Source of the DNA: Siminovitchia terrae
GTDB lineage: Bacteria; Bacillota; Bacilli; Bacillales; Bacillaceae_C
NCBI RefSeq assembly: GCF_003605405.2
Contig: NZ_QYTW02000002.1
Coordinates: 373,561 to 424,021, forward strand
Direction of reading: 5' to 3'
Length of the DNA: 50,461 nucleotides
Part shown: positions 1 through 47,051 of the stretch, piece by piece
Position numbering within the stretch: the stretch's first letter is position 1
Layout of the letters: each line of letters opens with the position of its first letter
The notes under the pieces: model-generated
Database searches by the model: none
What the model saw: only the letters and a program-made list of their open reading frames with translations
Told to the model about the DNA's origin: nothing
Made by a program: the position numbers and the translations under genes

Positions 1-135
1 AAACTTGGTCTTGTTCGTTTTGCAAAAAGTCGTGATATAGAAGGTCGTATTCTTAACGCAACTGGTGTCCCTGTAGCTTTTACCCAACTACTCCCAGCCG
101 TTAATTTCCATGCTTTTAGGAAACACAAAAGTTGA
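1..135 (+). pseudogene. TnpB (IS200/IS605-type) fragment, cut by the window edge and by a junction
   Basis: Reading from base 1, the first 21 codons give KLGLVRFAKSRDIEGRILNA, which resembles the central part of IS1341-type TnpB (the RNA-guided nuclease of IS200/IS605 elements), where KLGxVRFxKSRExEG is a familiar stretch. After about base 62 the similarity ends, and the frame continues through 22 unrelated residues to a stop at 133-135. No catalytic RuvC or zinc-ribbon segment follows. I infer a decayed insertion-element remnant whose 5' part lies outside the window. Confidence 0.5.
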
Positions 136-165: not shown

Positions 166-2058
166 CTAAAGATTAATTTTCAGCACTCTGCCCATCTTTT
201 TTAATTCTGATTCAATGTATTCTTTACTATAGTCATAGCCGATTAGAGCGATAACTTTTCCAGAGTGGTCCATCACTGGTGCAAGGCTTGATTTCCACTC
301 TCCAAAAATGTCCCTGTACACCGGGGTTACTTCAACTCTTCCCTTTACTGCATTACGTGCCACTTTCATAAATTCCTCTGAACTTTCATACGATTCTCCA
401 GGTTCCATCACGAAATCTTTGTCGGCCACAAGGGTTCTGAATTTTTTATTGTCGAGAATGTCGAAGATAAAGGACCACTTAATTCCGCCTTCCTGCTTTC
501 TAATCATCGTCAGCTGCGCCTGTATTTTTTTGAATATTGGATTATTAGTGGTTGGGTTTCTCTTTAAATCGCTGACTTCCTCTGGTTCTATGATAGCTGC
601 AGTGGCTATGGCAACTGAACGCAATCGGTTATTTAGTTGGTCTTCAAGTATTTTTCTTTTTTCGGAAGGTGAGATGTTTTGTTTAGATAAATTGTTAAGA
701 ATCTTTTTGTACTTCCTGCTCATGGTTGGCTGGCTGACATTCAATGCTTTAGCCGCAAGTTTGATCGATTTATACTTTTCCATAGCCATGTTGATTAATT
801 GCTCTTCTACAAGGTCGATTGCATCTTGAAGCGGTATGAGATGTTCAAATACAGGGGGCGCCTTCATTATTTCTTGCTCAAGCGGCACATATTCTTGCAC
901 AGCGGATGCATCTACTGTCGGGCCTTTACTTGTCACTACAATTCTTTCGACCGTATTCTCAAGCTGCCTAATATTTCCCGGCCATTCATATATGGACATT
1001 AAGTCAATGGCATCCTGATCAATTTGAACAGTACGGTCATACAAATGATTATATTTGTGCAAAAAGAAGTTAATTAAGTATGGCAGCTCTTCAAGTCTTT
1101 CTCTTAAAGATGGAATCTCAATCGGAATGACATTTAAACGGTAGTAAAGATCTTCTCTGAATTCCCCTTTTTCAACCAATGTTTTCAGGTTTTTGTTTGT
1201 AGCTGTGATGATCTGGATATCCAGTTTGATTGGTTTGAAGCTTCCCAAAGGAGTGATTTCTCTTTCTTGAAGAACTCTGAGCAGTTTCACCTGAAGATTG
1301 AGCGGCATTTCCCCTATCTCATCAAGAAAAAGCACGCCATGATTAGCAAGTTCGAATTTGCCTGGCATGCCTTCTTTTTTGGCTCCACTGAATGCTCCTT
1401 CTACATACCCGAATAATTCACTTTCCAATAAATTTTCAGGGATTGCACCGCAGTTTACTGGAATGAAAGGTTGGTTTTTCCTTGGCCCCAAGTCATGAAT
1501 GGCTCTTGCAATCACTTCTTTTCCCACTCCGGACTCCCCTAATAATAGAACCGAAGAGGAAACTTTTGAAACAACTTCCACTGTGTTTAAAACAGTCATC
1601 ATCTTTTGACTTTTCACGATAAATAATCTTGAGGTATCATTTGCTGATGCTTTCGAAAAATCAATATCCTCGTCAGCTTGATCTTCCATCAAAACATTAT
1701 CGTTCCTTGAAAGAACTTTAAACCCCCATGTTACATATTCAATATCACCGATCTGGCTTTCTGGATAATAGGTAATAAGAATTCTTTGATTATTCCAGGA
1801 GGTTTTGATGGCAGATCTCTTATTTTCATTTTTGAATTCATCCAATGGTTCTTCTTCATAAAAGATTTGTTTCTCAATCTCGAATAAGTTCATCCCGATT
1901 AAGTTGGTTTTGTCGTTCCATAATTTCTCAATACCCCCAAAATTTTCCGTGATCCTACCCTGATGATCTGTGATGATGATTTCGTCATAAATATTTAGAA
2001 GAGTAGATTTTAAAACGTTTACAAATGAGTTATTTGATTTTAAAGATGAACTATTCAT
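166..2058 (-). CDS. Sigma-54-dependent transcriptional activator (PAS, AAA+, HTH, C-terminal sensor-like domain)
   Basis: Bacterial enhancer-binding protein that would use ATP to open sigma-54 promoters. From the chosen start (MNSSSLKSNN, 630 aa) there is a PAS-like region (about 15-120), then an AAA+ domain with Walker A GESGVGKE (about 174-181), the sigma-54 loop as GAFSGA (about 221-226, usually GAFTGA) and Walker B LFLDEIGE. A Fis-like HTH (KLAAKALNVSQPTMSRKYKK) follows. Unusually, about 150 more residues come after the HTH; they resemble a Cache/PAS ligand-binding fold (EPGESYESSEEF, VTPVYRDIFGEW, GKVIALIGYDYS), without any membrane segment. An upstream in-frame ATG at 2181 would add 41 residues that overlap the divergent promoter, so I prefer 2058. 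It faces two sigma-54 promoters (2183 and 4246), which it probably controls. Confidence 0.9.
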   Translation of the reverse strand: MNSSSLKSNNSFVNVLKSTLLNIYDEIIITDHQGRITENFGGIEKLWNDKTNLIGMNLFEIEKQIFYEEEPLDEFKNENKRSAIKTSWNNQRILITYYPESQIGDIEYVTWGFKVLSRNDNVLMEDQADEDIDFSKASANDTSRLFIVKSQKMMTVLNTVEVVSKVSSSVLLLGESGVGKEVIARAIHDLGPRKNQPFIPVNCGAIPENLLESELFGYVEGAFSGAKKEGMPGKFELANHGVLFLDEIGEMPLNLQVKLLRVLQEREITPLGSFKPIKLDIQIITATNKNLKTLVEKGEFREDLYYRLNVIPIEIPSLRERLEELPYLINFFLHKYNHLYDRTVQIDQDAIDLMSIYEWPGNIRQLENTVERIVVTSKGPTVDASAVQEYVPLEQEIMKAPPVFEHLIPLQDAIDLVEEQLINMAMEKYKSIKLAAKALNVSQPTMSRKYKKILNNLSKQNISPSEKRKILEDQLNNRLRSVAIATAAIIEPEEVSDLKRNPTTNNPIFKKIQAQLTMIRKQEGGIKWSFIFDILDNKKFRTLVADKDFVMEPGESYESSEEFMKVARNAVKGRVEVTPVYRDIFGEWKSSLAPVMDHSGKVIALIGYDYSKEYIESELKKMGRVLKINL

Positions 2059-2106
2059 TATGCCATTCCCACATCCTTTATAGGTACTTTGTTCTAGGAG
2101 AGTAGT

Positions 2107-2117
2107 GATTTCAATTT
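2107..2117. promoter_or_regulatory. Candidate upstream activator site GATTTCAATTT
   Basis: This 11-mer lies 66-76 bp upstream of the -24 element at 2183. Its exact reverse complement, AAATTGAAATC, lies at 4179-4189, 57-67 bp upstream of the -24 element of the second sigma-54 promoter. Such a pair would suit a shared enhancer for the adjacent activator. The motif is AT-rich, so chance occurrence is possible. Confidence 0.3.
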
Positions 2118-2182
2118 TAAATGAAAAATTCATAAATGCAACTCGAATTTTCCCGCAATCCCTAAATGTAAAGGTTTTCAAT

Positions 2183-2199
2183 TTGGCACGATACTTGCA
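2183..2199 (+). promoter_or_regulatory. Sigma-54 (-24/-12) promoter of the permease operon
   Basis: TTGGCAC-GATAC-TTGCA matches the sigma-54 consensus TGGCAC-N5-TTGCW exactly, with correct spacing. Transcription would begin near 2210, just ahead of the small ORF and permease. It is divergent from the activator gene. Confidence 0.88.
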
Positions 2200-2235
2200 A
2201 AATAAGTATTTGAAAAAATGATTGGGGGGATTCTT

Positions 2236-2436
2236 TTGAAAAGAGAAAGCATGATTGAAAAGAACATGATGTCTTCAAATGAGTTTGTCAAAAATCTATA
2301 TACGGATCTTCATGGAAGAATTCAAGATTACGAGAAGGAGGAATCAAGTGTTAAAAAAATGACGAAGGCGGAAGCTATGCCGGAGATCGTTACAGTAGGA
2401 GGGTTTTGCATCTTTTTATTAACGGTTATTTTTTAA
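2236..2436 (+). CDS. Small single-span membrane protein, hypothetical
   Basis: A 66-residue protein starting at TTG 2236, which sits 5-6 nt after a GGGGGG ribosome site; the in-frame ATG at 2218 would be only about 8 nt from the predicted transcription start. The first 45 residues are charged (EKEESSVKKMTKAEAM), and the C-terminus is one hydrophobic segment (IVTVGGFCIFLLTVIF) that ends the protein, like a tail anchor. It lies directly behind a sigma-54 promoter and 87 bp ahead of the permease, so it may be a small accessory subunit of that transporter. I do not recognise the family. Confidence 0.6.
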   Translation: MKRESMIEKNMMSSNEFVKNLYTDLHGRIQDYEKEESSVKKMTKAEAMPEIVTVGGFCIFLLTVIF

Positions 2437-2523
2437 AAATGATTAGAGGCGCTTTCTACCATTTAAGGCAGCAAACGTTCACGCCACCAGAAAAAATAAA
2501 AATTTAAAAATTTGGAGGTTCTA

Positions 2524-3954
2524 ATGAGTAAAGATAACAATTCGGCTATTTCTAAAGATGTGGCATTCGGTTTTCTGCCTGCACAAAAAAATGATAGGGT
2601 ATTTGGCTTTTGGGATCTGGTCCTCATTCAGGTAGGAATTGGGATTTCCTGTATTTGTATACTTACCGGCAGCTATACTGGCATGCTGTTGAATGCTAAG
2701 GAATCGTTAGCGGCTGTTTTATTTGGGAATGCTATTCCGTTCTTTTTAATTGCACCTATCATTCTGCTATTTGCCAGGTTTGGAGTTGATACGTTTATCG
2801 GCTTTAGAAGTGCACTTGGATATTTAGGTTCAAATATTTTTTATTTCATTTTTATGTTACTTACGATCGGATATATGTCAGTAGCCTTTTTCATGGCTGG
2901 AGAAGCTTTAGTGAAGATTGCTTCCGTCATAGGCCTTCCTGGATTTTTTGTAAGTAGTAAAACGGGAGCTCCGTTCTTTGCGATCATTGTCTTTGCCATT
3001 GTATTTTTCATAACATTCCAAGGGCCGCTGGTCATGCGCAAGTTCAACCTCATTGGTGTCCCGGCCATTTTGCTTGTTGTTTTAGGGCTATTTTTAATGT
3101 TGATATTTGGAATAGGTTTAACTAAAATTTTTGGTTTATCCCCAGCTGAACCTTATCCTGGAGATCATACTCGTTCGTTTGTTACAGCTTTAGAAATAAA
3201 TGTTGGACTTGGATTTTCCTGGCTTCCATATCTTGGACAATACGCTCGGCTTGCCAGAAATGAAAAGACAGCTTTCAGAGCAGGGTTTTTCAGCTATGGC
3301 GTCATCGTCAACATTGCGGTCATTTTCGGAGCTCTATCGGCAATAGTGGTTGCATCAGTAGAACCAACTGATTGGATGTTTGCTATTGCAGGTTCCTGGG
3401 CTGGAGCCATTGGTCTTGTATTACTTACAATCGGAAACATCACTGCTGGTACTTTTCTTATGTATTCACAAGCGATCAGCTTTAAAACTGTTTTTCCAAA
3501 GAAATCTTGGAAGTTTGCCATGGGAACAGCCATACCAACTATATTGTTACTATTAAGTGCATCTTTTTACCAAGCCTTCGGTTCCTTCATTACAGTGATT
3601 GCCTACATCATGGCCGTGTTTGGTGGGATCGTCATTTCTGACTTCTTCTTTGTGAAGAAACAGAAGCTATCTATTAAAGACTTATATGATACGAATGGGA
3701 ACTATTATTACTGGCGTGGAGTGAACCCTTCCGCAATTGTTAGCTTTATCGTTGGTACCATTGTGTATTGGAGCTTATATAATCCTGTGATGGATACATC
3801 AAGCGGCTTATTCTATTATATTTCCGCAGGGATACCAGCGTATTTTACAGCCGGGATTAGCTATTATATTTCGGCAAAATTCATCTTTTCTTTTCATACA
3901 GATCGGGTAGTTGAAGAAAATACCTTGGTATCTAAAGGAAAAAGTGCTGTTTAA
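2524..3954 (+). CDS. NCS1-type permease (cytosine/purine/allantoin family)
   Basis: Integral membrane transporter of 476 aa with about 12 hydrophobic segments. The N-terminal FGFWDLVLIQVGIGISCICILTG, GLGFSWLPYLGQYARLARNE in the middle and the ISDFFFVKK region near residue 380 are typical of nucleobase:cation symporter-1 proteins, which import purines, pyrimidines, allantoin, hydantoins or thiamine. The ATG at 2524 follows GGAGG by 6 nt; the TTG at 2512 lies inside that ribosome site. Expression should come from the sigma-54 promoter at 2183. The last codon and stop (GTT TAA) merge with the first bases of a dispersed repeat. Its proximity to an N-demethylase operon suggests an N-methylated heterocycle or amine as substrate, which is inference. 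Confidence 0.85.
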   Translation: MSKDNNSAISKDVAFGFLPAQKNDRVFGFWDLVLIQVGIGISCICILTGSYTGMLLNAKESLAAVLFGNAIPFFLIAPIILLFARFGVDTFIGFRSALGYLGSNIFYFIFMLLTIGYMSVAFFMAGEALVKIASVIGLPGFFVSSKTGAPFFAIIVFAIVFFITFQGPLVMRKFNLIGVPAILLVVLGLFLMLIFGIGLTKIFGLSPAEPYPGDHTRSFVTALEINVGLGFSWLPYLGQYARLARNEKTAFRAGFFSYGVIVNIAVIFGALSAIVVASVEPTDWMFAIAGSWAGAIGLVLLTIGNITAGTFLMYSQAISFKTVFPKKSWKFAMGTAIPTILLLLSASFYQAFGSFITVIAYIMAVFGGIVISDFFFVKKQKLSIKDLYDTNGNYYYWRGVNPSAIVSFIVGTIVYWSLYNPVMDTSSGLFYYISAGIPAYFTAGISYYISAKFIFSFHTDRVVEENTLVSKGKSAV

Positions 3955-4140
3955 CTTCATTCAGCAGAAGTCTCCCACTTCTGTAAGTGGTGAGATGAAT
4001 GCATATTGGTATTCCATCAGGGGGGTTCAAACCCCGGCTGAATAAAGTTAAAGCCTCCGGCGGGCCACAGATTTTCAGAGGAAATTTATCGAGTGGAGCT
4101 CGATAAAATCTTGACGCAAATACGCTAAGGCGCATTTGAT
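3950..4140. repeat. Dispersed structured repeat A, copy 1
   Basis: First of five copies of an approximately 190-bp element that starts TTTAACTTCATTCAGC and ends GCGCATTTGAT. It contains several hairpins: a 5' arm around CCCACTTCTGTAAGTGG, a strong ATTCAG..GGGGTTCAAACCCC..CTGAAT stem, a TATCGAG..CTCGATA stem inside AGATTTT/AAAATCT arms, and a terminal AAATACGC/GCGCATTT stem. Its TAA is used as the stop codon of the permease. Confidence 0.85.
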
Positions 4141-4245
4141 TCGTAAAATTTCGTTTTTGAATGGAAATTTAAAAAATGAAATTGAAATCGGAGTTTTAAA
4201 AACGTAAAAGGATGGATATATGGTGGTTTTTGTCCCGCAAAGGTT

Positions 4246-4262
4246 TTGGCACGTTAATTGCA
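4246..4262 (+). promoter_or_regulatory. Sigma-54 (-24/-12) promoter of the hemA/N-demethylase operon
   Basis: TTGGCAC-GTTAA-TTGCA is a second exact match to the sigma-54 consensus, about 90 bp before the TTG start of hemA. Immediately upstream, TCCCGCAA and AAGGTTTT also occur ahead of the promoter at 2183, so the two regulatory regions share sequence beyond the core elements. Confidence 0.88.
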
Positions 4263-4349
4263 TTATGTATGAAGTGTAAGTTAGAAGGTGAAAATTCCTT
4301 TCCACTACTGTCAGCTTCATGAATGAAATCAACTGGAAGGAGGGGTATA

Positions 4350-5690
4350 TTGGCTGTCTCGGTTGTTGGGTTAAATCACGATAGTGCCTCTTTGTCCGTA
4401 AGGGAACAGCTTCACTTTAATGATGAAGAGAAAAAGAATTTTGAAATGAAATTGACTTCCAGCAACGTTATTAAAGAATGTGTTGTGCTCAGCACCTGTA
4501 ACAGAACAGAAATTTATGTAGTTACAGATCGTCTGTACTTGGCGGAAGGAATGATAAAAAAACTTCTGCTACAGAAGGTAAAGAAAGACTCAAGGAAAGC
4601 TGAGAAGGCCTTGTATGTGAAAGTAAACGATGAAGCTGTTAGTCATTTGTTTACAGTAGTATGTGGTCTAGATTCCTTAGTGATTGGCGAAACCCAAATA
4701 TTAGGGCAGGTCAAGGATGCTTTTTTCCAAAGTCAAAAAATGGGCAGTACTGGAATAGTGCTTAACCGACTTTTCAAACAGGCGGTCACCTTAGGTAAAA
4801 AGGCTCATGCAAGGACTGGTATAGGAAAGCGAGCTGTGTCTGTCAGTTATGCGGCGATTCATTTTCTTAAAGAAAATATTTCCGGTTTGGAACAAAAACA
4901 AATTTTGATTATTGGGGCTGGCACAATGAGTAAATTAGCCGCTCAGCATTTAATATCAATTGGGTGCGGCGATCTGCTTTTTGCAAATCGCACTTTAGAC
5001 AGGGCGGCTGAATTGGCAGATACATTTGGTGGTAGCGCCAGCAGGATAAATGACTGCTTTGAATTAATGCAGCAAGTCGATATTGTCATCTGTTCCGTTG
5101 ACAAAAGAAACTACTTGATTCATTTGGAAGGAATACTTGGTTTTATCTCAAAAAGAAAGCGCCCTCTTTATCTGATTGACCTGGGAGTCCCAAGAAATAT
5201 AGATCCCAGCATAGCTGACATTGAAAACGTTCACTTATATGATTTGGATCATTTTAAGGAAGTTATTGAATCAAACTGTCAACGAAGAATAGAAGAAGCG
5301 CATAAGATCAAACGGATGATTAGAGAGGAACTGGATGAATTTAACCAATGGATACAAACACTTCCGGTCACGATCCTCATACGGGAGCTGCAAGAAAATG
5401 CTTTAAAAATAGAAGCTGAAGCAATCAAAAATATAGAAAATAAACTACCGGATTTAACGGATAGGGAGAAGCGAGTTATTCATAAGTTTACAAAGATGAT
5501 TTCCAGCCAGTTGATTCGCCAACCCATTCTTATGTTGAAAGAAATAGCTTCCTTAGAAGATGACCGGGTCAAGAAGATCGAGTACCTGGGATTAGCTTCG
5601 CGAATATTAGGGCTTGAAAGTGAATTGAGATTTGATTCCGATGTGAAGCAAGCACTTTTAAATGAAACGTTAGAAGAGACAGGAAGTTAA
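4350..5690 (+). CDS. hemA: Glutamyl-tRNA reductase (HemA paralogue)
   Basis: Reduces glutamyl-tRNA(Glu) to glutamate-1-semialdehyde with NADPH, the committing step of C5 heme synthesis. At 446 aa it is full length. Visible are the start region VVGLNHDSASLSVRE, the catalytic cysteine in STCNRTE, SHLFTVVCGLDSLVIGETQILG, the nucleotide-binding GAGTMSKLAAQHL, DLGVPRNIDP, and the C-terminal helical dimerisation domain. The TTG at 4350 follows AAGGAGGGG, whereas the ATG at 4323 lacks a site. It does not have the usual hemXCDBL neighbours: it leads a sigma-54 operon whose next gene, 15 nt on, encodes a heme-dependent demethylase. I infer a dedicated copy that raises heme supply when the demethylase is induced. 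Confidence 0.93.
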   Translation: MAVSVVGLNHDSASLSVREQLHFNDEEKKNFEMKLTSSNVIKECVVLSTCNRTEIYVVTDRLYLAEGMIKKLLLQKVKKDSRKAEKALYVKVNDEAVSHLFTVVCGLDSLVIGETQILGQVKDAFFQSQKMGSTGIVLNRLFKQAVTLGKKAHARTGIGKRAVSVSYAAIHFLKENISGLEQKQILIIGAGTMSKLAAQHLISIGCGDLLFANRTLDRAAELADTFGGSASRINDCFELMQQVDIVICSVDKRNYLIHLEGILGFISKRKRPLYLIDLGVPRNIDPSIADIENVHLYDLDHFKEVIESNCQRRIEEAHKIKRMIREELDEFNQWIQTLPVTILIRELQENALKIEAEAIKNIENKLPDLTDREKRVIHKFTKMISSQLIRQPILMLKEIASLEDDRVKKIEYLGLASRILGLESELRFDSDVKQALLNETLEETGS

Positions 5691-5705
5691 AAGGAGGAAA
5701 ATCAG

Positions 5706-6683
5706 ATGTACAAATCTACAAACTTAGATATGTTTACATTTCCATTTGTAAATTTCAAGGATAAGACTTACCGCTATTCCAATGACCTGGTGGCACTGCC
5801 AGAGGACAAAGTGAACTTTATGAAAATTGCTCCAGAATATGAGGCGCAAATTAGAAGAAAAAGGGCAATGTTGGAGAAACAGCCTGATGTTCGCTACCAG
5901 TCGTTTCCACATACAATGGAAATGCAGTGGGAGTTTGTCGAATTACTCATCGGTTTGGCGGTAGATAAATATCCTGAACATTTCAGTGTTGAAATAGACG
6001 GGGATCAATGGACTTTTACCAACCATATTCTCGGAGAAACAGAAAAATTTACTTTTGGGGATGAATCTAGTCTTTCGCATGAACCTTACGACATGATTGG
6101 CCGTCATTTCCATAATGACTTTATGTTAATGGTCAATAGGGATGATAACTTCTATCTTGAAGTTGCTCAGGAGTCTTTTGCAGCTTTGTTCTCTCCAAAC
6201 TGGAATCTTGGAATGAGCTTTAATGAGATACATGGACCTGTTCCGTTTAAAAGCCGGGACGGAGTACATCTGACAGATAGAATTCGCAAGTTTTTGTTGA
6301 CTCTTGAACCAGGTGCACCAAGAACAAGAGTCAACTGGAACCTGATGGCAGATCGCTGGGATGTAAACTATGAAACGATGGATGTTTGGGGACCCCAAAG
6401 GGAAAAAGTGACAAATGAAAATGCTGGAAAGCTGGTACATCTTCGCGTTGAAGAGCAATGGTTCATCCGTATGCCGCGAAGCAATGCGGTCTTGTTCGTC
6501 CTTGATACACAGTTTCTACCTTTGGAAGACCTGGTGAAAAGACCTGACTGGTTGGAAATCACTTATTTCAACCTTGCGGATATTCCGGATGATATGGCGG
6601 AATACAAGGGAATGGCACCATTTTTACCTCAGTCAGTCGAATACTTGAAAAACTTGATTGAGACGATGAAAGTACAACAATAA
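5706..6683 (+). CDS. Heme-dependent oxidative N-demethylase, alpha subunit family (DUF3445)
   Basis: A 325-aa protein that I recognise as the DUF3445/HODM family, whose studied members are heme proteins that oxidatively remove N-methyl groups (for example dimethylamine to methylamine and formaldehyde) with electrons from a flavin/iron-sulfur reductase. Supporting stretches are DVRYQSFPHTMEMQWE, IGRHFHNDFMLM, FSPNWNLGMSFNEIHGPVPF and LEPGAPRTRVNW. No signal peptide or membrane segment, so cytoplasmic. The start has a strong AAGGAGG site. Its upstream neighbour is hemA and downstream lie a DmmA-like subunit and a reductase, a set resembling the dmm genes. The substrate in this organism cannot be read from sequence. 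Confidence 0.88.
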   Translation: MYKSTNLDMFTFPFVNFKDKTYRYSNDLVALPEDKVNFMKIAPEYEAQIRRKRAMLEKQPDVRYQSFPHTMEMQWEFVELLIGLAVDKYPEHFSVEIDGDQWTFTNHILGETEKFTFGDESSLSHEPYDMIGRHFHNDFMLMVNRDDNFYLEVAQESFAALFSPNWNLGMSFNEIHGPVPFKSRDGVHLTDRIRKFLLTLEPGAPRTRVNWNLMADRWDVNYETMDVWGPQREKVTNENAGKLVHLRVEEQWFIRMPRSNAVLFVLDTQFLPLEDLVKRPDWLEITYFNLADIPDDMAEYKGMAPFLPQSVEYLKNLIETMKVQQ

Positions 6684-6708
6684 AACTTAGTAGAAAGGGA
6701 GGAGCACT

Positions 6709-7200
6709 TTGTATAGTAGTCCAGTATTATATGATCAATCAGAAACATTAAAAGATGAACTTACTTTTAATAATAAAAGGAGAAAGCATCTGATCGTTTA
6801 CGATCAAAAAGCTGCAGAAGACATCATTCAGACATTGGACAATCATTCGCATGATCAGTATGAGGCTCTTGAAATAAGAGATTCTACTAATCTTCAGGAT
6901 TTACGAGTCCTGCTCTACAGTCAAAAAATGGGTACTCAATTATACATTGCATCAGATTGGGATCACGCTGTTACGGTCTTTACCGAGGCAGTGGAAGCAG
7001 GCTTTACAGAAGATGAAATTCAGGTGATCATATACGGCCCTACAAAACGTTACGTCTATTGTGTCAAATGCTATAACACAAGTGAAACCACTTACGATGA
7101 TGAGGTCCAGTGCCCACACTGCAGTATCCATATGGAAGTTGGACCATTTTTCTCAAAAGTCCGTAAAGGTTACATCGGATATCCATTCAATCCAAATTAA
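6709..7200 (+). CDS. Dimethylamine monooxygenase subunit DmmA-like protein
   Basis: A 163-aa cytoplasmic protein starting at TTG after AAAGGGAGGAG. The N-terminal two thirds are alpha/beta-like (LLYSQKMGTQLYIASDWDHA). The C-terminus carries two CxxC pairs (CVKC and CPHC, about 119-136) that look like a zinc ribbon or rubredoxin-type knuckle, followed by GPFFSKVRKGYIGYP. This arrangement fits the small DmmA subunit of multicomponent dimethylamine monooxygenases. It lies 25 nt after the DUF3445 gene and 25 nt before the reductase, so it is probably a structural or electron-transfer component of the demethylase. Naming rests on recalled family features and gene context. Confidence 0.72.
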   Translation: MYSSPVLYDQSETLKDELTFNNKRRKHLIVYDQKAAEDIIQTLDNHSHDQYEALEIRDSTNLQDLRVLLYSQKMGTQLYIASDWDHAVTVFTEAVEAGFTEDEIQVIIYGPTKRYVYCVKCYNTSETTYDDEVQCPHCSIHMEVGPFFSKVRKGYIGYPFNPN

Positions 7201-7225
7201 CAGCAGAAGAAAGGACTGAGATAAA

Positions 7226-8185
7226 GTGCTGAGAGTATATGGAAATATTGAAATGATTGTAGAAAAAATCGAACAGGTAACAGACAGCGTCAAACGCTTC
7301 TATCTTTATCCTGCAGATAAAAAATTACTGCCAGCGTTTACTGGTGGTGCGCATATCACGACGTATGTGGATGCTGGAGATGAAATTATTGAAAGGGATT
7401 ACTCCCTCGTCAGCCACCCGACTGATCGGGCTAATTATTCCATTTCGATTAATCGTGATTCTAATTCAAGGGGCGGTTCAGTTTACTGGCATGATCATGT
7501 AAAAGTGGGGGACACAGTTAAAACAAGTTTGCCAAAAAACCATTTTGCATTAGGGTTCCACGCTAAACATCATGTATTTTATGCTGCCGGGATTGGGATT
7601 ACTCCATTCTTGACGATGATGGCTGATTTGGAAGCCCAAGGTAAAACCTTTGAGCTCCATTATGCAGCAAGAACAAAGGAACAATGTGCCTTTTACGATT
7701 ACCTGAACGAAAAACACCCTGGGAAATGCACTTTCTATTTCTCAAGAAGTGAGCAGCCGGTTCGGATGACACCTGAATCAATGAAGGATCATAGAATTGG
7801 AAGCCATGTTTACTTCTGTGGGCCGGTTTCCATGGTTGCAGAATTTAAGGACGCAGCCTTGTCTTACGGTTACCCTGATAAATCAATTCACTTTGAACTA
7901 TTTGCTAATGACACTGGGCCCAAAAATCCATTTGTAGTCGAGGTAGACAACCAGGTGATTGAAGTAACGGAACAGCAAACATTGCTTGAAGCGCTGTTGG
8001 ATGCTGGCATAGAAGCACCATATTCTTGCAAGGCTGGCGGATGCGGGCAATGTGAAATAGATGTTGTATCAGGTGCCGTGGATCATCGCGATATCTTTTT
8101 CAGCGATGAAGAAAGAGCTGAAAGAAATAGCATTTTGACATGCTGCTCAAGAGCTAAGGAAGAAAAACTTGTTTTAAAAATATAA
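7226..8185 (+). CDS. Flavin and [2Fe-2S] oxidoreductase (PDR/VanB type), demethylase reductase
   Basis: A 319-aa reductase that would pass electrons from NAD(P)H through a flavin to a plant-type [2Fe-2S] cluster and on to the heme demethylase. Domains in order: flavin-binding barrel with RDYSLVSHP (about 55-65), nucleotide-binding region with YAAGIGITPFLTMM and FCGPVSMV, and a C-terminal ferredoxin with CKAGGCGQCEID and a fourth cysteine in ILTCCSRA. This order matches phthalate dioxygenase reductase and the VanB family. It starts at GTG 7226 behind AAAGGACTGAG. The operon context makes it the likely DmmB-equivalent. Confidence 0.88.
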   Translation: MLRVYGNIEMIVEKIEQVTDSVKRFYLYPADKKLLPAFTGGAHITTYVDAGDEIIERDYSLVSHPTDRANYSISINRDSNSRGGSVYWHDHVKVGDTVKTSLPKNHFALGFHAKHHVFYAAGIGITPFLTMMADLEAQGKTFELHYAARTKEQCAFYDYLNEKHPGKCTFYFSRSEQPVRMTPESMKDHRIGSHVYFCGPVSMVAEFKDAALSYGYPDKSIHFELFANDTGPKNPFVVEVDNQVIEVTEQQTLLEALLDAGIEAPYSCKAGGCGQCEIDVVSGAVDHRDIFFSDEERAERNSILTCCSRAKEEKLVLKI

Positions 8186-8206
8186 CAACATACGAGGTGG
8201 ACAAAA

Positions 8207-9700
8207 ATGACAGTAAAAACAGATGTGCTAGAATTAAACAATTATATCAATGGTGAGTGGATAGGTCCTTCTAACTCAGATAGAAACAAAGTAATCAACC
8301 CTGCTAATCAGGAAGTGATTGCAGTAGCCCCAAGAGCTACAAAAGAAGAAACAGAAGAAGCGATTGCTGTAGCCAAATCCGCTTTTGAAAGTGGCGTATG
8401 GTCCGGTCTGACTGCTCATGAACGAAGTGAATATTTGAACAAAATTGCAGATAAAATCGACGAGAATTTCGATGAACTCGTAAGGTTAGAAGTAATGGAC
8501 AACGGTAAAATTAAGGCAGAAGCAGAATTTGATATTGCTGACGCTGCCGGCTGCTTCCGTTACTATGCAGGTTTGGTCTTGGCGCCTGAAGGTGAAACAT
8601 ACCAAGTTCCTGAAGATGTCCAGGCAATGATTGTCAAAGAGCCCGTCGGGGTAGCAGGGCTTATCGTTCCTTGGAACTTCCCGCTGTTAATGAGCGTCTG
8701 GAAAATCGCTCCAGCCCTGGCTGCAGGAAATACGATTGTATATAAGCCTGCAGAAGCAACACCGATCACCGCTATGAAATTGGTTGAGATCATTGAAGAA
8801 GTTGGTGTCCCCAAAGGTGTTATCAACCTTGTCATGGGTAGAGGTTCTGTTGTCGGTCAGACAATCGCAGAAAGCAAAGACGTCGATCTTGTTTCCTTCA
8901 CCGGAAGCACAGAAGTTGGCCGGGAAATCATGAGAGCAGCTGCAGGAAATTTGAAGAAAATTTCTCTTGAGCTTGGCGGAAAATCACCAAACATCATTTT
9001 TGCCGATGCGGATTTTGAGACTGCGATTGACCATGCTTTAATGGGAATCTATTTTGGTTCTGGCCAAGTTTGTTCAGCGGGAAGCCGTGTATTAGTAGAA
9101 GAGAGCATTTACGATAAGTTCGTAGAAACCTTCGTCGAACGAGCAAAATTGATCAAAGTTGGCCCTGGCCTAGATGAGAACTCTCAAATGGGTGCGATCA
9201 ACAGCGAAAGCCAAATGAATACAATCCTGAAATATATTGAAATTGGTAAAGAGGAAGGTGCTACGCTGGCTTTTGGGGGCCGCCGTCTGACTGAAAATGG
9301 GTTGGATAAAGGATTCTTCATTGAGCCGACAGTATTCACAAATGTAACTTCCGATATGAGAATTGTTCAGGAAGAAATTTTTGGACCGGTTGTCACTATT
9401 CAAAAGTTCAAAGATGAAGAGGAAGCAATTCAACTTGCAAATGATACAGATTTTGGCCTTGCTGGCGGTGTTTTCTCAAATGATGGAGCAAAAGCGCTAC
9501 GTGTTATCAAAAAGGTTCGAGCTGGAATTACTTGGGTGAACACATTCGGTCCAACATATAACGAAGCTCCATGGGGCGGTTACAAAATGAGTGGAATCGG
9601 ACGTAGCCTTGGAACTTACGGCTTGGATGACTTCCAAGAAATCAAACAGATTAATATTAACCTTGCTGTAGAGCCTTCAGGCTGGTTCCCAAATAAATAA
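8207..9700 (+). CDS. NAD(P)-dependent aldehyde dehydrogenase
   Basis: A 497-aa member of the classical ALDH superfamily, oxidising an aldehyde to its acid. Key residues are visible: Asn157 in VPWNFP, the FTGSTEVG motif at 231-238, general base Glu255 in LELGGK and nucleophile Cys289 in GQVCSAGSR. It is full length, with a GAGGTGG ribosome site. It closes the operon, 21 nt after the reductase and just before a terminator, so it probably oxidises the aldehyde produced by demethylation (formaldehyde or a substrate-derived aldehyde). The true substrate cannot be told from sequence; this subgroup also includes betaine and other aldehyde dehydrogenases. Confidence 0.92.
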   Translation: MTVKTDVLELNNYINGEWIGPSNSDRNKVINPANQEVIAVAPRATKEETEEAIAVAKSAFESGVWSGLTAHERSEYLNKIADKIDENFDELVRLEVMDNGKIKAEAEFDIADAAGCFRYYAGLVLAPEGETYQVPEDVQAMIVKEPVGVAGLIVPWNFPLLMSVWKIAPALAAGNTIVYKPAEATPITAMKLVEIIEEVGVPKGVINLVMGRGSVVGQTIAESKDVDLVSFTGSTEVGREIMRAAAGNLKKISLELGGKSPNIIFADADFETAIDHALMGIYFGSGQVCSAGSRVLVEESIYDKFVETFVERAKLIKVGPGLDENSQMGAINSESQMNTILKYIEIGKEEGATLAFGGRRLTENGLDKGFFIEPTVFTNVTSDMRIVQEEIFGPVVTIQKFKDEEEAIQLANDTDFGLAGGVFSNDGAKALRVIKKVRAGITWVNTFGPTYNEAPWGGYKMSGIGRSLGTYGLDDFQEIKQININLAVEPSGWFPNK

Positions 9701-9710
9701 GTGATTGATA

Positions 9711-9739
9711 AAGAGAAGTGGTCCTCACTTCTCTTTTTG
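9711..9739 (+). terminator. Rho-independent terminator of the N-demethylase operon
   Basis: AAGAGAAGTG, a 5-nt loop and CACTTCTCTT followed by TTT form a 10-bp stem 10 nt after the aldehyde dehydrogenase stop. Confidence 0.85.
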
Positions 9740-9764
9740 AAAAAATTACAGTTTTTTCAAGGAG

Positions 9765-11147
9765 ATGGCCACTATAAAACAAACAATTAGATTACGGGAA
9801 AAATTGTATCAGTTTTTTGTTATATTGGTGCCAATTTTAGTAGCCAATGTGGCGACTTTCTCCATGAGTTTTTTTGATGTTATGATGACCGGAAATTATT
9901 CCGCCACACATTTAGCAGGCGTAGCTGTTGGTTCCTCTTTATGGCTTCCAATACAAATGGGAGTTGGCGGAATACTTTTATCAGTGACTCCTATTATTGC
10001 CCACCTTTTGGGTAAGAGGAAAGTGGACCAAGTTTCTTCATATGTCGTTCAAACAATTTACGTTGGAGTTGCTTTGTCCTTATTTATATATATGTTGGGG
10101 ATGTTTTGTTTAAATCCCTTGCTGGATTTAATGGACTTGGAAAAAGATGTTCGATATGTGACGAAATACTACTTGATTAGTCTTGCTGCAGGATTCATTC
10201 CCTATTTCATTTATTGTGGACTCCGCGGATTTATTGATGCTTTAGGAAAAACGAATGTCACAATGCTGATCACCTTACTAGCACTTCCAATCAATATCAT
10301 TCTGAACTATATACTGATCTATGGAAAATTTGGTTTCAATGAGCTGGGTGGTATAGGAGCTGGTGTTGCAACTGCTCTTACATACTGGATCACTACTTTG
10401 CTAGCGATATTGATTATTCATAAAATCAATCCTTTTGTATCTTATGGCATTTTCAAATCGTTTCAAAAGATTCATTTTGAAAAGTGGAAGGAAATTCTTA
10501 GGTTGGGGGTTCCAGTAGGACTGACAATATTTTTGGAGATTAGCATATTCTCCGCAGTCACATTGCTAATGAGCCAGTTTGGAACGGTTGTGATTGCCGC
10601 TCATCAGGCAGCTCTCAATTTTGCCTACCTATTATATATGCTTCCTCTAAGTATTTCGGCAGCATTGACCATTTTGGTTGGCTTTGAAGCGGGAGCCCTG
10701 CGATTTAAAGATGCTCGCTCCTATAGCTTTCTGGGGTTGGGAACAGCGGTCCTATTGACAACGGTTTCAGGTATGCTCCTATTTGTTTATAGGGTGCCAG
10801 TGGCGGAGCTATACAGCAAAGATCAATCTGTGGTTAATTTGACGGCCCAGTTTCTTCTGTATGCTGTATTCTTTCAACTGTCAGATGCATTTCAATCTCC
10901 CATTCAGGGCGCTCTTAGAGGGTATAAAGATGTGAATGTAACGCTTGTTATGTCTATTGGTTCCTACTGGATCATTGGGTTGCCGTCCGGACATGCTTTG
11001 GCAGTATTTACAGGAATGGGGCCTTACGGTTATTGGCTGGGATTGATTATCGGCTTGGGGATCGGAGCTATAACTTTGTCATATCGTCTTTTCCATGTGC
11101 AAAAGAAACAAAAAAGTCAAAGGGACTTGCAGCAGATGATTAGTTGA
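9765..11147 (+). CDS. MATE family efflux transporter
   Basis: A 460-aa membrane protein with about 12 hydrophobic segments. It shows MATE hallmarks: FSMSFFDVMMTG near the N-terminus, VGVALSLF, GLRGFIDALGKTNV, and IAAHQAALNFAYLLYMLPLSISAALTILVG. MATE proteins expel cationic drugs and metabolites by sodium or proton antiport. The ATG at 9765 directly abuts AAGGAG, too close for a normal ribosome site. An in-frame ATA at 9774 sits at the right distance and is followed by KQTIRLREKL, the usual family N-terminus, so the original start may have mutated. A terminator upstream separates it from the demethylase operon. Confidence 0.88.
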   Translation: MATIKQTIRLREKLYQFFVILVPILVANVATFSMSFFDVMMTGNYSATHLAGVAVGSSLWLPIQMGVGGILLSVTPIIAHLLGKRKVDQVSSYVVQTIYVGVALSLFIYMLGMFCLNPLLDLMDLEKDVRYVTKYYLISLAAGFIPYFIYCGLRGFIDALGKTNVTMLITLLALPINIILNYILIYGKFGFNELGGIGAGVATALTYWITTLLAILIIHKINPFVSYGIFKSFQKIHFEKWKEILRLGVPVGLTIFLEISIFSAVTLLMSQFGTVVIAAHQAALNFAYLLYMLPLSISAALTILVGFEAGALRFKDARSYSFLGLGTAVLLTTVSGMLLFVYRVPVAELYSKDQSVVNLTAQFLLYAVFFQLSDAFQSPIQGALRGYKDVNVTLVMSIGSYWIIGLPSGHALAVFTGMGPYGYWLGLIIGLGIGAITLSYRLFHVQKKQKSQRDLQQMIS

Positions 11148-12675: not shown

Positions 12676-12797
12676 TTTAACTTCATTCAGCAGAAGTCTC
12701 CCACATCTGTAAGTGGTGAGATGAGTGCATATTGGTATTTCATTCAATCATTTATATCAAATACGCCAAGACGCATTTGATATAAATGATTGAATGA
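12676..12797. repeat. Dispersed structured repeat A, copy 2 (internally deleted, long palindrome)
   Basis: Shares about 70 bp of the 5' part of repeat A (TTTAACTTCATTCAGC onward), then jumps to the 3' part (CAAATACGCCAAGACGCATTTGAT), missing about 70 bp. The right portion, 12740-12797, is a nearly perfect palindrome: 28-bp arms with two mismatches around a 2-bp centre. It could extrude as a cruciform or act as a bidirectional terminator. Confidence 0.85.
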
Positions 12798-21798: not shown

Positions 21799-21992
21799 TT
21801 TAACTTCATTCAGCAGAAGTCTCCCACTTCTGTAAGTGGTGAGTTGAATGCATGTTGGTATTCCATTCAGCGGGGGTTCAAACCCCGGCTGAATAAAGTT
21901 AAAGCCTCCGGCGGATGCCACAGATTTTCAGAGGAATTTATCGAGCGCCGCTCGATAAATTCTGGGCGCAAATACGCCAAGGCGCATTTGAT
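21799..21992. repeat. Dispersed structured repeat A, copy 3
   Basis: Full-length copy, TTTAACTTCATTCAGC to GCGCATTTGAT, with all stems conserved. The inner palindrome reads TATCGAGC-GCC-GCTCGATA here against GGA or similar in other copies, so the stem is kept while the loop varies. It lies in the gap between cccB and ftsE. Confidence 0.88.
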
Positions 21993-29957: not shown

Positions 29958-30117
29958 CACTCTTATCAAGAGCGGCGGAGGGATTAGGCCCTGTGATGCC
30001 CGGCAACCTTCAGATTTTCTGAAAAGGTGCTAATTCCTACAAGTCAAATGACTTGGAAGATAAGGGGAGGAATCGTCATATCGGCCCTCTTCTTATACGG
30101 AAGAGGGCTTTTAGTTT
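29958..30117 (+). ncRNA. SAM-I (S-box) riboswitch with terminator
   Basis: The aptamer shows the conserved S-box blocks: CTCTTATCAAGAG (P1 and kink-turn side), GGCGGAGGGA, GGCCCTGTGATGCCCGGCAACC, AAGGTGCTAATTCC and GATAAGGGGAGG. It is followed by a terminator hairpin (GCCCTCTT / AAGAGGGC then TTTT, about 30084-30112). S-adenosylmethionine binding should favour the terminator and switch off metY. Confidence 0.95.
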
Positions 30118-33927: not shown

Positions 33928-34115
33928 TTTAACTTTATTCAGCAGAAGTCTCCCACTTCTGTAAGTGGTGAGATGAATGCATATCGGTATTCCATTCAGT
34001 GGGGGTTCAAACCCCGGCTGAATAAAGTCAAAGCCTCCGGCGGGTGTCACAGATTTTTAGAGGAAATTTATCGAACGATAAAATCTGGGCGCAAATACGC
34101 CAAGGCGAATTTGAT
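33928..34115. repeat. Dispersed structured repeat A, copy 4
   Basis: TTTAACTTTATTCAGC to GCGAATTTGAT. It differs from the others by a short deletion in the inner hairpin (TATCGAACGATA instead of TATCGAGCnnnGCTCGATA), which shortens the loop but keeps the stem. It lies between ctpB and minJ, two genes that are adjacent in B. subtilis. Confidence 0.88.
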
Positions 34116-46861: not shown

Positions 46862-47051
46862 CTTCATTCAGCAGAAATCTCCCACTTCTATAAGTGGTGA
46901 GATGAATACATATTGGTATTCCATTCAGTGGGGGTTCAAACTCCGGCTGAATAAAGTCAAAGCCTCCGGCGGATGCCACAGATTTTCAGAGGAAACTTAT
47001 CGAGCGGAGCTCGATAAAATCTGGGCGCAAATACGCCAAGGCGCATTTGAT
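46857..47051. repeat. Dispersed structured repeat A, copy 5
   Basis: Full-length copy, TTTAACTTCATTCAGC to GCGCATTTGAT, with small changes (CCCACTTCTATAAGTGG, GTTCAAACTCC). The hairpin TATCGAGC-GGA-GCTCGATA is intact. It provides the stop of the flippase gene and lies 41 bp upstream of the next ORF. Confidence 0.88.

Follow-up and report, generated by a model that had tools for sequence, protein, structure and literature searches.

The window analysed here is the whole stretch of 50,461 nucleotides taken from Siminovitchia terrae (RefSeq assembly GCF_003605405.2, contig NZ_QYTW02000002.1, positions 373,561–424,021; genome of 5.3 Mb in 68 contigs), and its first part carries a gene module built around a heme oxygenase of the HODM/DMM family. 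A sequence-only reading of this DNA had described an activator, two exact -24/-12 sites, a permease, a glutamyl-tRNA reductase gene (hemA), an oxygenase trio and an aldehyde dehydrogenase (ALDH), all of which are present by profile and pattern searches. The activator, of the sigma-54 (SigL) dependent kind, is encoded on the reverse strand (166–2058), and two sets of genes follow on the forward strand. The first stands behind promoter 1, a -24/-12 sigma-54 site (TGGCACGATACTTGCA, 2184–2199, forward strand), and consists of a small protein (2218–2436, with starts possible at 2218, 2236 or 2251) and an NCS1-type permease (PF02133; 2512–3954, likely start ATG 2524). Three features were absent from that reading, namely the small open reading frame (ORF) ending at 2436, paired candidate activator sites before each promoter, and a copy of a genome-wide structured repeat of 108 bp in the permease–hemA spacer (3955–4062, outside the module, found by sequence comparison).

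The second set, the oxygenase operon, stands behind promoter 2 (TGGCACGTTAATTGCA, 4247–4262, forward strand) and begins with a second glutamyl-tRNA reductase, hemA2 (4350–5690; the ORF runs from 4323, with TTG 4350 the likelier start). It is followed by the HODM/DmmC-like heme oxygenase alpha subunit (DUF3445; 5706–6683), a short form of the DmmA-like subunit (6709–7200; NF041259, 68.3 bits against a cut-off of 60), a DmmB-like FAD/NAD(P)/2Fe-2S reductase (7226–8185; 35–38% identical to two reductases of proteobacterial dmm clusters) and an ALDH placed by family profiles in the betaine-aldehyde/aminoaldehyde group (8207–9700), behind which lies a terminator-like hairpin with a T-run (9710–9740, forward strand; z -3.24 against shuffles). 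With the hemA2 start taken at 4350 the gaps between these genes are 15, 25, 25 and 21 nt, in agreement with the 15–25 nt given earlier. The alpha subunit belongs to the HODM/DMM family (PF11927, 168.8 bits against a cut-off of 25, E 2e-49) and aligns over residues 11–316 with HODM (PDB 5lte, 5lth, 5lti; E 2.3e-56 for 5lte), whose structures we take to be of the Pseudomonas mendocina protein and which, on what was seen, differs from the module in regulation and partners.

Searching 84,980 species genomes for the alpha subunit turned up 38 loci, reduced to 37 by excluding L047 (Gordonia, 29%, a distant actinobacterial protein), and the module genes were counted in these by tblastn with roughly 9 kb available on each side. 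The hodm gene with its adjoining dmmA and flavin-2Fe-2S reductase genes, the partners typical of the HODM/DMM family, was found in all 37 loci, the ALDH in 36, the divergent activator in 34, the NCS1-type permease in 29 and hemA2 in seven (six at the position seen in the window, that of L039 behind the permease). Within the stretch examined the activator is missing from L016, where the contig ends on that side, L018 and L039. Of named species, Bacillus norwichensis and Siminovitchia fordii are the nearest at this locus (alpha-subunit scan). Conservation of the neighbourhood in relatives, on which the sequence-only reading had made its proposal depend, is thus borne out by 37 loci, and the gene set is a real, conserved and coherently organised module.

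More broadly, a PF11927 protein occurs in 80 of 397 genomes of the order, in two types. The 13 higher-scoring places that were read are bare hodm-dmmA-reductase clusters ('type b') in which the module activator, ALDH and permease were not found by tblastn, except for a 24% permease match in L107; the five lower-scoring places that were read carry the module (L109–L111 are probably the same records as L012, L013 and L016). The type-b clusters have the same three subunits, with an alpha subunit ~40–45% identical, and in the alpha-subunit tree the module type stands apart from the proteins of type b (six included) and of proteobacteria (four), the type-b clade having support of 94/85. Neighbours of type-b clusters are mixed, including one class-III aminotransferase among the 13 loci (L103, 39%), and L103 and L115 have one sigma-54 site each. 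The locus L018, from a gammaproteobacterial metagenome-assembled genome, carries the module with neither activator nor sigma-54 site and with an alpha subunit 77% identical, a possible case of horizontal transfer. The entire module, including hemA, is also found on the 396-kb plasmid pPM400 of Bacillus badius NBPM-293 (L048). Downstream of the module, from ~13.5 kb, five loci of the Peribacillus group (L021, L027, L029, L030, L032) have a second activator gene, 34–35% identical, then an iron-type alcohol dehydrogenase (by eye) and a transporter-like protein with no Pfam or NCBIfam match; in four of the five a further ALDH-like gene in this region is cut by the end of the locus.

The two perfect promoters of the earlier reading are confirmed as exact TGGCACN5TTGCA sites at 2184 and 4247. 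With up to two mismatches allowed the window total (26) is at the level of shuffled sequence (mean 25.0), which leaves only the exact sites with weight. Across the window and its 37 relatives (725 kb) there are 21 exact sites, where 20 simulations averaged 0.35, and 53 matches to the laxer TGGCAYN5TTGCW against 2.4 in simulated sequence, counts that rule out promoters arising by chance. In 36 of 38 loci, the window included, a sigma-54 site precedes the small gene, the permease, hemA2 or hodm at a distance of no more than 330 bp (L018 and L019 are the misses). The window genome has rpoN, and a sigL-like gene adjoins the activator in four of the 37 loci (the family search was done for L033). 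Use of sigma-54 is probably broad in the window genome, where 50 sites were counted against four for a reversed control pattern.

An expectation-maximisation search of 44 upstream regions returned the palindrome ATTTCAN4TGAAAT, with a log-likelihood of 323 (25 restarts) that is inflated by relatedness, against 45–56 in four shuffles (10 restarts each). When the motif was trained on 12 of the 44 promoter regions, all from other genera and some related to one another, and the window group was then scanned, matches were found before promoter 1 (p 0.011) and promoter 2 (p 0.006; better site of each pair, 1000 shuffles). The candidate sites form pairs, at 2108 and 2127 (2108–2142) and at 4148 and 4167 (4148–4182), with an identical spacing of 19 bp before both promoters, the site at 2108 being weak (score 8.5); across loci the motif falls mostly at about -61/-72/-83/-92. 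A score of at least 9 within 160 bp upstream was reached by both module promoters and by one of 28 other sigma-54 sites (30 of the 50 sites in the genome were covered). Because the motif stands before both module promoters and so rarely before others, one activator probably drives both operons, which lends support to the earlier claim of a single regulon. Weighing against this, the motif is AT-rich, its two best matches in the window lie inside genes (1823 in the activator, 5980 in the oxygenase), and the relatedness among the 12 training promoters has to be taken into account. Counts of k-mers in the upstream regions gave no usable motif, and when 20 family genomes were searched at the nucleotide level with the region of promoter 2, only its own genome matched.

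The activator ORF (166–2181) reaches a TTG at 2181 that adjoins the first sigma-54 site; ATG 2058 is the likelier start because it leaves room for the activator sites and because the alignable part of many homologues begins only at about residue 40–60. The protein has the AAA+ domain (PF00158, 233 bits) with a GAFSGA motif, the AAA lid and the helix-turn-helix (HTH) of a sigma-54 enhancer-binding protein (HTH_50, PF18024, 32 bits), and falls well short of the PrdR equivalog cut-off (NF041552, 364.1 against 795 bits). GAFSGA is shared by many relatives, others have GAFTGA, and in some neither form was found. Beyond the HTH lies a C-terminal domain that is conserved (25 aligned sequences) and has no real match in Pfam, the best plausible match in a PDB profile search being PAS (E 0.19). 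This domain is probably sensory, and may sense the amine.

The permease is within PF02133 (82.2 bits against a cut-off of 23.5) and below the NCBIfam ncs1 subfamily (TIGR00800, 95.3 against 353.1 bits), and profile alignment makes it a distant relative of Mhp1 (E 7.2e-17). In this weak alignment other residues stand at the hydantoin-contacting positions of Mhp1, which we take to be W117, Q121, W220 and N318. A glutamate close to the aligned contact positions, E228, is invariant in 18 of 18 sequences and might, as a weak pointer, suit a cationic substrate. The small protein, of 72 residues at most, has a hydrophobic C-terminal stretch (one membrane helix by eye) and no Pfam or NCBIfam match. 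It stands before the permease in 28 of the 29 permease loci (the miss, L016, is cut) and in no locus without a permease, and in L039 the pair is found behind the ALDH, a distribution that makes it a candidate permease partner. Where the NCS1-type permease is missing (eight loci), one and the same APC permease is found downstream every time (82–100% identical to that of L020), and L038 has both, which suggests that the two are interchangeable importers.

The nearest described gene cluster is DmmDABC of Paracoccus aminophilus (pAMI6) and Ruegeria pomeroyi, of which the module has DmmA, DmmB and DmmC counterparts (26%, 38% and 35% identical to the P. aminophilus proteins) in the order C-A-B as against D-A-B-C. 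In P. aminophilus the DmmC gene is required for growth on dimethylamine, according to the available part of PMC4543880. The module lacks DmmD/GcvT, FolD, PurU and GMAS and has instead an ALDH, an NCS1-type permease, hemA2 and the sigma-54 activator. An ordinary dimethylamine monooxygenase in a Gram-positive host, yielding methylamine and formaldehyde, would account for the counterparts of all three DmmABC structural subunits, and the available part of PMC5520151 has DmmABC alone yielding methylamine from dimethylamine in E. coli. Such an enzyme nonetheless appears improbable here. The linked DmmD/GcvT and tetrahydrofolate one-carbon (C1) genes of the DmmDABC system are missing: DmmD, FolD, PurU and GMAS were found in none of the 37 loci (tblastn, E 1e-5), nor was either of two further queries, one FAD oxidoreductase and one soxB-like protein, whereas DmmD-like, FolD and PurU genes occur in three of the four proteobacterial plasmid clusters that were read (with a GMAS-like gene in one; the fourth, L052, shows none, and its record ends close by). 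In addition, 35 alpha-subunit positions differ between at least 19 of 20 module-type and four of four proteobacterial proteins, many of which also occur in type b and have no tie to the substrate site. Dimethylamine was lowered as a candidate substrate on the absence of the five linked C1 or methylamine genes sought.

A different linkage is found in eight of the 37 loci (L020, L023–L026, L033, L036 and L046; tblastn), where gabT (71–100% identical to that of L036) and gabD (67–100%) lie beside the module, in two lineages of the alpha tree. In L036 gabT begins 37 nt after the ALDH, where a ribosome-binding site is present and inspection by eye showed no terminator, and gabD begins 12 nt after gabT, so both genes are probably inside the operon; the GabT of L036 is over the NCBIfam cut-offs. 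With ~1.2 gabT over cut-off per genome (25 genomes), proximity by chance is estimated for well under 1% of loci. Other class-III aminotransferases lie near the module in L031, L038, L043 and L044.

An oxidation that forms an aminoaldehyde is favoured over the release of formaldehyde, because the C1 genes sought are absent from all 37 loci, HxlA of the ribulose monophosphate (RuMP) pathway is patchy (absent from 12 of the 25 cluster genomes tested, that of the window included, and present in 13) and gabT and gabD are linked. The ALDH scores below the betaine-aldehyde dehydrogenase equivalog (TIGR01804, 608.3 against 668.6 bits) and is nearest to betaine-aldehyde/aminoaldehyde dehydrogenases. 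On these results the N-methyl substrate and formaldehyde product proposed from the sequence alone were not established. Several observations pull the other way: the gabD of L036 is below the cut-off for succinate-semialdehyde dehydrogenase (625.8 against 646.35), no TIGR00700 gabT over cut-off was found in the window genome and six of 24 other genomes tested, and 25 of 37 loci have neither gabT nor another class-III aminotransferase within reach of the search; moreover, HODM itself is a demethylase, and on the computed results demethylation may still be the reaction. Each of the seven genomes without gabT has one to seven other omega-aminotransferases, and gamma-aminobutyrate (GABA) as a universal product was lowered since canonical gabT is missing from these seven of 25 genomes.

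A tentative alternative is genuine oxidative N-demethylation, with dimethylamine replaced as substrate by another N-methyl amine, for instance an N-methyl amino acid such as 4-(methylamino)butyrate. The ALDH would then take formaldehyde to formate, and GabT/GabD would receive what is left after demethylation (GABA in some hosts). The membership of the alpha subunit in the HODM family speaks for it and the gabT–gabD linkage would fit demethylated GABA equally well, while the missing C1 genes, the distribution of HxlA and the affinities of the ALDH set out above speak against it. The aminoaldehyde-forming oxidation has a parallel in PipA/MorA of mycobacteria, a P450 that we take to be of a protein family unrelated to the module oxygenase. 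In the available part of PMC9477822 this heme oxygenase hydroxylates cyclic secondary amines (piperidine, pyrrolidine, morpholine), the type of reaction favoured here. N-demethylation for its part can draw on sarcosine demethylation in Bacillus thuringiensis, which is under sigma-54 control (PMC4941409, available in part).

Glutamyl-tRNA reductase is the rate-setting step of heme synthesis, and hemA2 is by profile a member of this family (TIGR01035, 389.7 bits against a cut-off of 209.55). The window genome has two hemA genes, the housekeeping copy scoring 503 bits and hemA2 390. Among 21 relatives checked for copy number, two hemA genes are found in all seven that have a module copy, and one in 13 of the 14 others. 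The exception is the genome of L038 (Bacillus sp. MUM 116), in which the second hemA lies elsewhere (L094), beside uricase-pathway-like genes and a peroxiredoxin (by eye). In the hemA tree (seven duplicate rows left out) the copy in the window groups with six others in a single, fully supported clade on a long branch (2.07); the module hemA of Ammoniphilus falls elsewhere, although all may still have a single origin. The earlier claim that the module brings its own hemA is supported, though in only seven of 37 relatives. Since 30 of the 37 loci are without hemA2, it is not essential to the chemistry, a point against the overall reading given below.

A passenger role for hemA2, as a fast-evolving paralogue that is moonlighting or decaying and has no part in heme supply here, would explain the long branch and the change, in at least one of the seven module copies, of 63 of the 143 housekeeping-invariant columns (80 are kept in all seven). 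It would also explain the weaker selection (dN/dS of ~0.28 against L010, compared with 0.05 for the housekeeping hemA; own script) and the absence of hemA2 from L012 and L015 within the hemA2-bearing clade. We consider this role unlikely, however, since the STCNR and GE.QILGQ catalytic motifs are intact in seven of seven module copies, the window's included, the open frame is kept under purifying selection and hemA2 is the first gene behind its promoter; it is constrained, less so than the housekeeping hemA. A second gltX, another C5 heme gene, also speaks against a passenger: it is directly behind the ALDH in L033 and L046 (Ureibacillus/Lysinibacillus), and of ten genomes tested only these two have two full gltX genes, the extra one beside the module both times. 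The two are sister loci in the alpha tree, so the linkage counts as one event, and a terminator-like hairpin with a T-run separates ALDH from gltX2 in both, which tells against the link and lowered gltX2 as a plain operon member.

The gene set, its conservation, the promoters, the shared motif, the second hemA and the gene linkages are read directly from the DNA, and from them we infer, with slightly better than even confidence, a substrate-induced catabolic module in which a heme amine oxygenase would give rise to an aldehyde and then to an amino acid such as GABA. The activator would bind the paired palindromes upstream of the two SigL promoters and turn on both the NCS1-type importer with its small membrane partner and the operon for hemA2, the three-subunit heme oxygenase and the ALDH. 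HemA2 would raise the supply of the heme precursor 5-aminolaevulinate (ALA) just as heme protein comes to be made in quantity. The oxygenase would hydroxylate the carbon adjoining the nitrogen of a small secondary or N-alkyl amine, and the hydroxylated product would fall apart to an aldehyde for oxidation by the ALDH. As substrate class we prefer cyclic or chain amines, pyrrolidine being an example, whose aldehyde would lead to GABA or a similar amino acid that GabT/GabD or other aminotransferases would take further. In outline this would be an ordinary catabolic operon, made unusual by the heme oxygenase, the dedicated heme-precursor gene and the probable link to amino-acid (GABA) catabolism. 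A more far-reaching proposal, which we regard as possible and still doubtful, is a new route of amine degradation in the Bacillales: an HODM-family oxygenase would open or cleave a secondary amine, and an ALDH would convert the resulting aminoaldehyde to GABA or an amino acid like it, with a single sigma-54 activator in control that carries a sensor domain at its C-terminus. To provide heme on demand, C5 entry would have been drawn into the module repeatedly, by way of hemA in one lineage, of gltX in Ureibacillus/Lysinibacillus and probably of a separate hemA in Ammoniphilus.

Parts of this arrangement have precedents in B. thuringiensis. The enzyme of its sox locus we take to be a sarcosine oxidase, not a heme oxygenase. 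In the available part of PMC4941409 the locus has a sigma-54 activator (SoxR) with one binding site serving two target promoters for oxidative sarcosine demethylation, and no hemA is named there, unlike in the module. The gab cluster, in turn, is controlled by GabR, a PAS-AAA-HTH activator acting with sigma-54 on GABA catabolism, and the available part of PMC4279683 names no oxygenase; gabT and gabD, for comparison, neighbour the module in only the eight loci above. The earlier claim of novelty held in so far as the matches listed (mainly open-access literature) included nothing on an HODM/DMM module controlled by sigma-54 or on a hemA within one, and gave way in so far as sigma-54 control of flavin-type oxidative demethylation (sox) is already known (PMC4941409, available in part). 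Searches on hemA paralogues and on pyrrolidine had nothing on this system among the matches listed. If the proposal is true, heme supply would be wired at its rate-setting step into a single inducible catabolic operon, giving a clean test of how cofactor and enzyme are matched; the pathway would be the first of the HODM family known to us that is sigma-54 controlled and Gram-positive, and the named carrier species would allow a search for the amine.

The MATE gene at 9765–11147 was rejected as an operon member, as the terminator-like hairpin intervenes and a MATE relative is present in just two of 37 loci. Left of the window lies a cluster with an FAD oxidoreductase and a PotA-like ATP-binding cassette (ABC) transporter (L154), and a TnpB-like fragment (by eye) occupies window positions 1–125, ending at the window start. 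Membership of this polyamine-like cluster in the module was not supported, since it ends ~6 kb before the window start with the TnpB-like fragment in between; the four upstream genes in L010, L011 and L017 belong to families other than those of the cluster. Elsewhere in the window genome (L153; G000 C6:92000-110000) an agmatine deiminase gene and a second sigma-54 activator are found with a carbamoyl hydrolase, omega-aminotransferase, ALDH and permease behind a sigma-54 site, an arrangement resembling an operon for agmatine/putrescine under sigma-54 (the names of the aminotransferase, ALDH and permease come from inspection by eye or a family search).

The repeat in the permease–hemA spacer is ~108 bp long and has further window copies at 21804–21913, 33933–34042 and 46862–46971 and a partial one at 12681–12743, with 41 copies in the window genome (40 of 590 first-look candidates scored). 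It had no Rfam family over cut-off (two matches were far below), is absent from the corresponding spot in L010, and occurs in copies of 76–83% identity in L010, L017 and L056. The six copies inspected are preceded by TTAA or TTTAA, and the predicted fold has a closing stem and three inner hairpins (z -3.3), one arm of which, GGGG-GTTCAAA-CCCC, resembles a tRNA T-arm. Farther along the window, an S-adenosylmethionine (SAM) riboswitch (29960–30066) lies upstream of a sulfhydrylase-like gene (named by eye).

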